From Verrucomicrobiia bacterium (GTDB taxonomy: Bacteria; Verrucomicrobiota; Verrucomicrobiia; Limisphaerales; JAEYXS01), in NCBI GenBank assembly GCA_036405135.1, contig DASWYF010000019.1, positions 1 through 64,000 of the forward strand: DNA of 64,000 nucleotides, read 5' to 3'. The translations under genes were made by a program, and so were the position numbers. Positions 52,634 to 64,000 of the stretch are shown here, in pieces. A model generated the notes under the pieces. The model saw nothing but the letters and a program-made list of their open reading frames with translations, was not told the origin of the DNA and made no database searches. Numbering within the stretch: position 1 is the stretch's first letter; each line of letters opens with the position of its first letter.

Positions 52634-52782
52634 GGAGCGCGACTCTCCGAGTCGCAGCAACTTACCTAAGCGATAAGCGGCATAATATTTTTGGAGTGTT
52701 CAAGCAGGGGTGCTCGTTGCTTCAGATAGTTTGCTCACCGTAAGTCATTTGGACGTTGCTGCGACTCGGAGAGTCGCGCTCC
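52634..52782. repeat. Paired-palindrome element 2 (perfect 27-bp inverted arms)
   Basis: Left arm 52634-52660 and right arm 52756-52782 are exact inverted copies; each holds the palindrome GCGACTCTCCGAGTCGC. The 95-bp spacer begins with ACCTAAGC. The right arm of element 3 (63714-63740) is identical over 27 bp and its left arm differs at one base. The element ends 6 bp from the stop codon of the SDR gene. Confidence 0.88.
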
Positions 52783-62617: not shown

Positions 62618-63517
62618 TCACGCGTCTTTAAAAGGATTGCCCGCTGGTTTGTCAGCGGACTTCGCAGTGCTGTCTGGTTCCGTCTTGGGGTGGTCGAACG
62701 GATTGCTTTTGGGGACAGTCGCCAGTTCGTTGCGACGGTTCAGGCTCATTACAGCCCCTCCCACATAGATCCAGCCGAGCACGATATGCAAGGCGCAGGC
62801 AGCGATAAGACCTTCCAAAGGCAAACCGCCAAGTCCATAGAGTACGATGGCTGCGCTGTAGACGATTGCGGGTGTGAGCAACGCAGCGGCGCTGAGCTTG
62901 ATTGCTTGGGAGAATCTCAATGCGCGGTCGCTCCAAAAGGCCATGAACTTGGCGATTGGCGCATACAGAAACGCCAGTACAATCCACAGCAGCCATAATC
63001 CCATGAATGTTCCGACGATTGCTCCAGTGATAAAGAAGGGGCGGCGTGCACCCCACCAGGGCTGGACATCGGGACGGTTGAGCACGAGCGAGAAGTTTTC
63101 GGAATACGGGATGTTGGAGTAGCCGAACATCGAGTAGATGCGGGCTTCTCTTTCGTGCAGTTCGAGCTGGACATCGGCAGACCGTCCGAAGTTGTGCGTG
63201 TTCACCGGTGTGACGATGATGGTCAGGCGGCGTGATTCGTTTAACAGGACGGCCTCTTGTTTGGGCCAGGCGAGTTCGCCCCGCAGGATGTAGCCGTTTT
63301 CCGGAAGGTTTTGGATGGCTTGATCTACTGCCGGAAGCCATGCCTGAAAGAGAAGTATCAGCACGGCAGCGACACCGCCAGCAGCGACGATGGCCTGGGC
63401 GATGAAGAGCCGCCGCCAGGAGCTGCTGCCGAATCCGGCGACGCCGCCAAACGTGATCGGCTGGCCAGCCATCACATCAGGTTTCTTTTCCGGCGGTTGC
63501 GGTTTGGTTTCTTCCAT
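62618..63517 (-). CDS. Multi-pass membrane protein, unknown
   Basis: 299 residues with four hydrophobic segments (about 40-62, 160-185, 206-226 and 232-255) around an exported domain (about 65-155, ESRRLTIIVTPVNTHNFGRS). Pro/Lys-rich cytoplasmic ends. No family recognised. 73 bp upstream of the LysM gene. Confidence 0.65.
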   Translation of the reverse strand: MEETKPQPPEKKPDVMAGQPITFGGVAGFGSSSWRRLFIAQAIVAAGGVAAVLILLFQAWLPAVDQAIQNLPENGYILRGELAWPKQEAVLLNESRRLTIIVTPVNTHNFGRSADVQLELHEREARIYSMFGYSNIPYSENFSLVLNRPDVQPWWGARRPFFITGAIVGTFMGLWLLWIVLAFLYAPIAKFMAFWSDRALRFSQAIKLSAAALLTPAIVYSAAIVLYGLGGLPLEGLIAACALHIVLGWIYVGGAVMSLNRRNELATVPKSNPFDHPKTEPDSTAKSADKPAGNPFKDA

Positions 63518-63600
63518 CGGCCCAATTTATGCCATGCGGGAGGCGATCCGCTTTGTGGGTATGGTACAGGGTGGGGACGGTAGTGCAAGGCATCCTCACT

Positions 63601-63740
63601 GGAGCGCGACTCTCTGAGTCGCAGCAATAACCTAGAGTCAGAGGGTGGGAAAAGTTTGATGGTTGCGTGGTTTGAGGCGTTTGTCGTTTTGATGCTCAAT
63701 GTGCTTAGGTGTGTTGCTGCGACTCGGAGAGTCGCGCTCC
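63601..63740. repeat. Paired-palindrome element 3, overlapping a gene end
   Basis: Left arm 63601-63627 and right arm 63714-63740 are inverted copies differing at one base; both hold GCGACTC...GAGTCGC. Spacer 86 bp. The right arm is identical to both arms of element 2. Element-proximal spacer wording ACCTAAGC recurs in elements 1 and 2. The right arm lies within the 3' end of the methyltransferase gene. Confidence 0.88.
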
Positions 63741-64000
63741 GCTGTCGCGTTTCCAGCAGTCGGAGCGGAGCAGGCCCCATTCGTGGGTTTCGTGGGCGAT
63801 TGAGATGAAGCCGTTTTGTTGCAGGTGCGTGGTGCAGTCGGTGAGGTGATGAGCGGGGAGATTCGTGACGAGGCGGAAGAAACGATACATGGCCCAGAGG
63901 ATTAGTTGCGCGCGCAGACGGGCGAGGCCGGTTGGTGGGAGATTGAAATCGGAGAGGAGCCAGAGGGCATCGGGTGTGGTGAAGGAGGCGAGCTTGGGGA
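63705..64000 (-). CDS. Class I SAM methyltransferase, C-terminal part (runs off right edge)
   Basis: About 97 C-terminal residues. PDALWLLSDFNLPPTGLARLRAQ, LWAMYRFFRLVTNLPA and HEWGLLRSDCW match the end of class I methyltransferases whose last helices carry MYRFFR and WGLL.SD.W. The final twelve residues (GARLSESQQHT plus flank) and the TAA stop are encoded by repeat element 3, not by ancestral sequence. The SAM-binding domain lies beyond the window. Confidence 0.75.
   Translation of the reverse strand, partial: PKLASFTTPDALWLLSDFNLPPTGLARLRAQLILWAMYRFFRLVTNLPAHHLTDCTTHLQQNGFISIAHETHEWGLLRSDCWKRDSGARLSESQQHT

Follow-up and report, generated by a model that had tools for sequence, protein, structure and literature searches.

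A REPIN-like element at the 3' end of a methyltransferase gene in a Verrucomicrobiia bacterium, and its possible relation to transposases in frame within housekeeping genes

Introduction

How does a protein-coding gene come to end inside a repeated element? The question is raised by a methyltransferase gene in the genome of a Verrucomicrobiia bacterium, whose last codons and stop codon lie within a 140-bp palindromic sequence. The DNA analysed here, referred to as the window, is the whole stretch of 64,000 nucleotides at G000:C19:1-64000. It comes from a draft assembly of 5.8 Mb that is divided into 52 contigs and 97.8% complete.

Short tagged hairpins of this general kind are known from other bacteria. 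The movement of REPINs is ascribed to RAYT transposases (PMC3116915, PMC6006769), and the definition of a REP includes a 5' tetranucleotide, GT[A/G]G, beside the hairpin (PMC3686654). REPs lie close to the 3' ends of ORFs, at less than 20 bp, and those with a GTAG tag often supply the TAG stop codon of flanking ORFs (Di Nocera 2013, PMC3733652). REPs are also found inside ORFs in several species, with intragenic GTAG repeats most frequent in O. terrae (PMC3733652), and insertions of REPs that keep the frame have been described inside subclass 2.4 tnpA_REP genes (PMC6006769).

Results

The methyltransferase gene ends inside the element

The methyltransferase ORF occupies 63705-64382 on the minus strand and encodes 225 aa, with its start 382 nt outside the window. 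Pfam identifies the product as a SAM methyltransferase (Methyltransf_25, E 3.5e-14). A codon-score gene caller favoured an antisense ORF at this locus; judged by homology, which outweighs that preference, the methyltransferase ORF is a real gene. The element at its end consists of two arms, 27-nt inverted repeats that are 96% complementary and separated by 86 nt (Table 1). The minus strand reads TGG AAA CGC GAC AGC up to the arm, GGA GCG CGA CTC TCC GAG TCG CAG CAA through the arm and CAC ACC TAA in the adjoining spacer.

A sequence-only reading of this locus had proposed that the arm is translated in the frame of the gene, up to a TAA just inside the spacer, and the ORF, with its stop at 63705-63707, confirms this. 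The same reading had the element provide the end of the protein, its stop codon and its last dozen residues; the end and the stop are indeed provided by the element, but the residues number 11 (GARLSESQQHT), nine from the arm and two from the spacer. A function of the tail itself is unlikely.

The end of the transcript is predicted to fold as a hairpin (z -6.2) in which the last codons and the stop codon are buried. The predicted fold of this copy has an energy of -72.4 kcal/mol, compared to -46.5 for shuffled sequences. A minus-strand TGA is present at 63596-63598, 2 nt past the far arm. At the search sensitivity used, the spacer has no second copy in the genome. The spacer of the other copy in the window (52634-52782) resembles, by eye, the spacer of L074.

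Table 1. Coordinates of the features discussed (window positions, or locus names for other genomes)
Feature	Position	Strand	Basis
Complete 140-bp REPIN-like element, with a spacer between two inverted hairpin arms	63601..63740		Arm comparison; one of 64 surveyed elements
Right arm, GGAGCGCGACTCTCCGAGTCGCAGCAA; in-frame reading GARLSESQQ	63714..63740	-	Sequence, ORF, arm-pattern matches
Left arm, GGAGCGCGACTCTCTGAGTCGCAGCAA	63601..63627	+	Sequence, arm comparison
Spacer, 86 nt; bases next to right arm encode His-Thr-stop	63628..63713		Sequence
Methyltransferase TAA stop codon, within element	63705..63707	-	ORF reading
Methyltransferase CDS, part in window; start at contig position 64382	63705..64000	-	ORF, Pfam
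Codons W K R D S preceding element; many homologues terminate a few codons from W	63741..63755	-	Homologue alignments
Next downstream gene, 299-aa ORF; start 83 nt past left arm	62618..63517	-	ORF list
Second element copy in window, 6 nt from stop of a 248-aa coding ORF (L063)	52634..52782		Arm matches
In-frame RAYTs in AlaS/ThrS, many ending in GGAG-tagged hairpins	L242, L254, L255, L256, L259-L286		Other genomes of the order
In-frame RAYTs in PriA, DnaE, ClpB, DinG-like helicase, UDPGP-like, SNF2 and HsdR-like hosts	L289-L308, L253		

Homologues of the methyltransferase lack the tail

Matches to the methyltransferase were found in 31 of 58 genomes searched, its own included (E ≤ 0.001), and 13 homologues outside its own genome align over most of its length. 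None of these 13 has the GARLSESQQHT tail. A larger set was made from 80 loci fetched from a scan of named genomes, one of which could not be aligned at the conserved Trp; the tail is absent from all 79 alignable homologues, and no arm is located within 400 nt of any of them. The protein of the congener G001, 64% identical, ends in WQRG*, one residue past the W-R motif. The expectation that orthologues would end near this motif and lack the tail was thus upheld, and the opposite finding, the same tail encoded by dissimilar DNA, was looked for and encountered in none of the 13 or the 79.

The length of the C-terminus varies widely in this family. Past the conserved Trp, the 79 homologues continue for 2-47 residues (median 7), with 39 ending within six residues and 17 carrying tails of at least 15 residues that are unrelated to the element tail. 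In these alignments the 15-residue stretch that follows the Trp here is not unusual in length. Because no homologue has it, the tail is, on the same comparison, an innovation of this lineage, and the C-terminus of the protein can vary freely. Among the searched relatives, the nearest of which have 64-65% amino acid identity, none had an empty site similar enough for the junction to be read. Because of that distance, we infer the insertion into the 3' end of the gene, as the sequence-only reading had it, from homologues that lack both tail and arm and not base by base.

The arm belongs to a family of GGAG-tagged hairpins

The arm has 56 matches in its own genome at three or fewer mismatches; a looser pattern gives 83 matches and none with the reversed control. 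Positions were surveyed at loci L009, L048-L086 and L115-L129, which were found by similarity to the arms, a procedure that misses decayed copies. In each arm, GGAG-C precedes a stem of 7 bp that closes a 3-nt loop. At the two variable stem pairs, 82 of 87 arms keep complementarity, in five forms (AC/GT 46, GG/CC 22, GC/GC 10, AG/CT 2, GA/TC 2). Such compensated changes speak for constraint on the predicted hairpin. Inverted pairs make up 20 of 67 elements, with paired copies of 102-158 bp, and the other 47 are single arms. The loose pattern has one or more matches in 36 of 58 genomes (own included), with a maximum of 154 in one genome, the weak matches including other repeat families.

Several features are those of REPs and REPINs. 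The arm is a short imperfect palindrome kept as a hairpin, its 83 matches are mostly outside genes (two of 64 elements were called intragenic), and two inverted arms with a spacer are predicted to fold as one long hairpin. The tag beside the hairpin is GGAG instead of GT[A/G]G, and for this reason the family is named REP-like and not canonical REP. The base before GGAG is T in 45, C in 27, A in 14 and G in one of 87 arms; the near-absence of G may reflect a cleavage or target site.

The consensus of the arm is free of stop codons in all six frames for the three most common stem forms. A third-frame stop is present in 12 of 84 arms, the loop variant TCT giving rise to a TGA. In 31 of 84 arms the first frame stays open until a stop at codon 12, and this is the stop used by the methyltransferase. 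Because the arm is mostly stop-free in all frames, a gene that runs into it would be extended rather than broken.

Elements crowd stop codons, and read-through is rare

A coding ORF runs toward the arm at 45 of 84 arms, as called by a simple codon-score procedure that is crude enough to have picked the antisense ORF at the methyltransferase locus. In 23 of these 45 genes the stop codon is -1 to 8 nt from the arm. With each element placed uniformly inside its own intergenic space, 7.15 of 49 elements are expected within 8 nt of a stop; 22 were observed, and none of 20,000 simulations was as high. Most of the close copies sit immediately past an intact stop, and four arms (L060, L071, L075 and L083) donate their first G to the TAG stop of the neighboring gene. 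This position may reflect targeting or selection, which position alone does not separate. Read-through into an arm is rare, the methyltransferase being the only credible case among the 45 genes. The suggestion that such elements can be fixed by way of mild protein changes is possible as a route, but one rarely used.

The read-through ORF at L058 was judged spurious, with a low coding score and antisense to a better ORF, and long ORFs across arms at L077, L074, L068 and L048 were not counted because of low coding scores. Two single arms lie in frame within genes: L053:4557-4583 in a PLP decarboxylase, which here exceeds PDB 2p3e by about 20 residues, and L069:2982-3008 in a gene for a CopA-type copper P-type ATPase. 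A second group of arms is found 50-79 nt past a stop (L120, L123, L076, L082, L070 and L071), often behind a T-rich run that resembles the sequence of an intrinsic terminator. By eye, elements had seemed to lie within the stems of terminators, which a test of the flanks did not support.

RAYTs and GGAG-tagged hairpins

A PF01797 search found eight Y1_Tnp genes in the genome. No RAYT flanked by the arm of the methyltransferase element was found there with PF01797, a hairpin scan or RAYT profile A1; the cognate RAYT flanked by the same REP that is part of the description of a REPIN is not among the genes these searches returned. On C6, one arm comes within about 1.2 kb of a RAYT, the only arm to do so; it is located in the neighboring gene, and the RAYT there is accompanied by GTAG hairpins of its own. 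On C10, a RAYT with an arm nearby carries other repeats.

RAYTs flanked by GGAG-tagged hairpins do occur, at L016 and L223 of the same genome, at L218 of the congener G001 and at L215, L222 and L227 of G049. In G041, a RAYT located in AlaS ends in the hairpin GGAGCGCGACCGTCCCGGTCGC. This hairpin has 37 matches in that genome at three or fewer mismatches (reversed control 1), including four on the stretch of contig that carries the RAYT. It has the design, tag, loop and flanks of the methyltransferase arm and differs in two compensated stem pairs. Apparent arm matches in L217 and L219 were noise at four mismatches. Other RAYTs of the genome (L010-L015 flanks, L120:3770-4650) lie between inverted clusters of different hairpins, GTAG-tagged at L014, and several REP-like systems coexist there.

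No target duplication was found in 19 pairs, where the exact mean was 0.26, compared to 0.24 with shuffled flanks; the twentieth pair, L073, was left out because its second arm was misaligned. The flanks of the elements have no excess of complementarity.

RAYT modules in frame within housekeeping genes

The PriA gene of the same genome (L133:1845-5138, G000:C13) is an open frame of 1097 aa. It aligns with PriA of known structure in the PDB as two pieces, chain residues 3-218 and 219-730, that abut in the structure and are separated here by 357 extra residues. The insert holds a RAYT with a Y1_Tnp domain (Pfam), flanked by two direct copies of a 207-nt repeat, itself an inverted pair. The insert is absent in all ten relatives searched, both congeners included, in which the two pieces are at most about 115 nt apart. 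ThrS at L256 and AlaS at L254 and L242 have the same arrangement relative to PDB structures, with about 210 extra residues each.

An in-frame RAYT profile matches 200 of 320 genomes of the order (E ≤ 1e-8). Among the 30 loci listed, the host is AlaS in 24, ThrS in four and PriA in one (the genome studied here), and one RAYT is free-standing; at some of the 30 the contig ends before the second half of the host. Profile A3 has nine rows, six of which are already in-frame RAYTs, so its best matches are enriched for such cases by construction, and counts from these selected sets give no fraction of RAYTs that are in frame. The AlaS inserts occupy two recurrent sites, at reference host residues ~319-329 and 433-438, and some genes have both. 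A further 20 loci were hand-picked for long frames, with hosts named by eye except for PriA and Pfam run on seven. They comprise PriA (three, at the same site), DnaE (two), ClpB (three), a helicase that we take to be DinG-like (six) and a UDPGP-like enzyme (four), in addition to an SNF2 protein and another helicase.

The HUH motif retains its two histidines, and a tyrosine stands at the expected position, in nine of nine aligned sequences. A tree of 57 RAYTs requires 15 changes of host label, compared to 36.1 with shuffled labels (none of 200 as low); in this sequence tree, RAYTs follow the host gene. Many inserts in AlaS and ThrS end in GGAG-tagged hairpins, and others have GTAG- or GGTG-like tags. 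An inverted repeat at the insert ends was not found in eight of 50 loci tested. Frames of 846 aa at L240 (G037) and 526 aa at L241 (G036) were seen by inspection only.

Discussion

The results presented here favor the following answer, to which we assign a probability of about 0.85: a non-autonomous REPIN-like element, spread by a RAYT, settled in the methyltransferase gene, at its stop codon or just ahead of it, and the gene now ends inside the element. The element would be two inverted GGAG-tagged hairpins that lack a transposase of their own. We infer, as the best account of its spread, mobility in trans by a RAYT, an HUH/Y1 transposase that would recognize the tag and hairpin in single-stranded DNA and insert copies without target duplication. 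Because the C-terminus of the methyltransferase family is variable, a site at the stop codon would be tolerated.

The alternative that deserves most weight explains the position by selection. Copies beside stop codons may have been retained as mRNA 3' ends, with possible roles in protection, attenuation of the next gene or effects on ribosomes, and the coding tail would be a by-product of a lost stop codon instead of an insertion ahead of that codon. The crowding of elements at stop codons, the transcript hairpin that buries the last codons and stop of the methyltransferase and the second group of arms 50-79 nt past a stop, often after a T-rich flank, are all consistent with this view. However, position alone cannot separate targeting from selection, and spread across unrelated genes requires a mechanism of mobility in either case. 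The TGA at 63596-63598 could be the original stop displaced by the insertion instead of lost, although the chance of a stop so close is not small. We consider selection as the whole explanation doubtful. Less likely still is a conventional MITE mobilized by a DDE transposase, with the 27-nt arms as terminal inverted repeats and the stop codon reached by chance. The inverted termini and the size of 102-158 bp would fit a MITE, but no target duplication accompanies the 19 pairs, and the clustering at stops departs from uniform placement. Moreover, each arm forms its own hairpin with a compensated stem and 47 of 67 elements are single, for which REPs are, in our judgement, the better fit.

Two further explanations concern the locus itself. 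The methyltransferase could be a pseudogene or the junction misassembled, given that the arm is repeated in the genome, that repeats are prone to misassembly and that the draft is in 52 contigs. This is improbable: the element is just 140 bp with a spacer unrepeated in the genome at the search sensitivity used, the methyltransferase is intact across the conserved Trp, and the same layout recurs in many other copies. An ancient, orthologous tail that only later came to resemble the repeat is barely credible, with the tail in none of the 13 or 79 homologues and the DNA of the arm near-identical to dozens of copies elsewhere. We return to a RAYT-spread REPIN-like element as the preferred reading.

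Among known systems, the family is most like the REPINs and REPs associated with RAYTs (Bertels and Rainey 2011, PMC3116915; Nunvar 2013, PMC3686654), which are likewise short tagged hairpins, dispersed, mainly intergenic, present as singles and as spaced inverted pairs and in several variants per genome. The differences from the systems in those papers are the GGAG tag, the lack of a RAYT found flanked by the same arm, and the host, a member of the Verrucomicrobiota rather than Pseudomonas or Stenotrophomonas. Compared to the GTAG- and CGTC-tagged REPs of PMC3733652, the tag is another one, the arm is read through and a TAA in the spacer is used. The palindromic elements of Rickettsia (RPEs; reviewed in PMC10969869), of about 150 bp, are also found in frame within protein-coding genes, a likeness drawn here from layout alone. 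IS200/IS605-type and TnpA_REP transposases (PMC6006769) are also Y1 HUH enzymes with adjoining hairpins. Because stops and residues derived from REPs have already been published (PMC3733652), the methyltransferase case is of an ordinary kind: a published effect is seen here once more, in a variant family with a GGAG tag.

The transposases in frame within host genes may explain why these arms can be read at all. On balance, we lean toward the view that a group of RAYTs resides in frame at recurrent sites in essential or housekeeping genes, and that the GGAG-tagged REPINs are its non-autonomous offspring. Those offspring would include the element that ends the methyltransferase gene, and host protein and transposase would form one open frame. 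REPINs derived from RAYTs resident in frame would be expected to have arms without stops that tolerate being read. The in-frame RAYTs would occupy the niche of inteins, and the Pfam scans made gave no splicing domain. A published report of RAYTs in frame within host genes was not found in the open literature searched, and as far as that search reaches they are undescribed. The survey in PMC6006769 dropped unexpectedly long proteins as fusions or annotation errors, whereas long RAYT-containing AlaS, ThrS and PriA frames recur here.

Taken alone, the methyltransferase tail is a modest finding, another REP-like element that ends a gene, of a kind already published. It gains weight from its setting, in which arms crowd stop codons and supply stops or in-frame residues, and in which whole transposase modules with hairpin ends are, in the same order, read through within aminoacyl-tRNA synthetases and replication proteins. 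If the frames that join host and transposase are translated and the hosts work, these bacteria would carry mobile DNA inside indispensable proteins without the self-splicing of inteins. If this is true, the tolerance of proteins for such inserts becomes directly testable.
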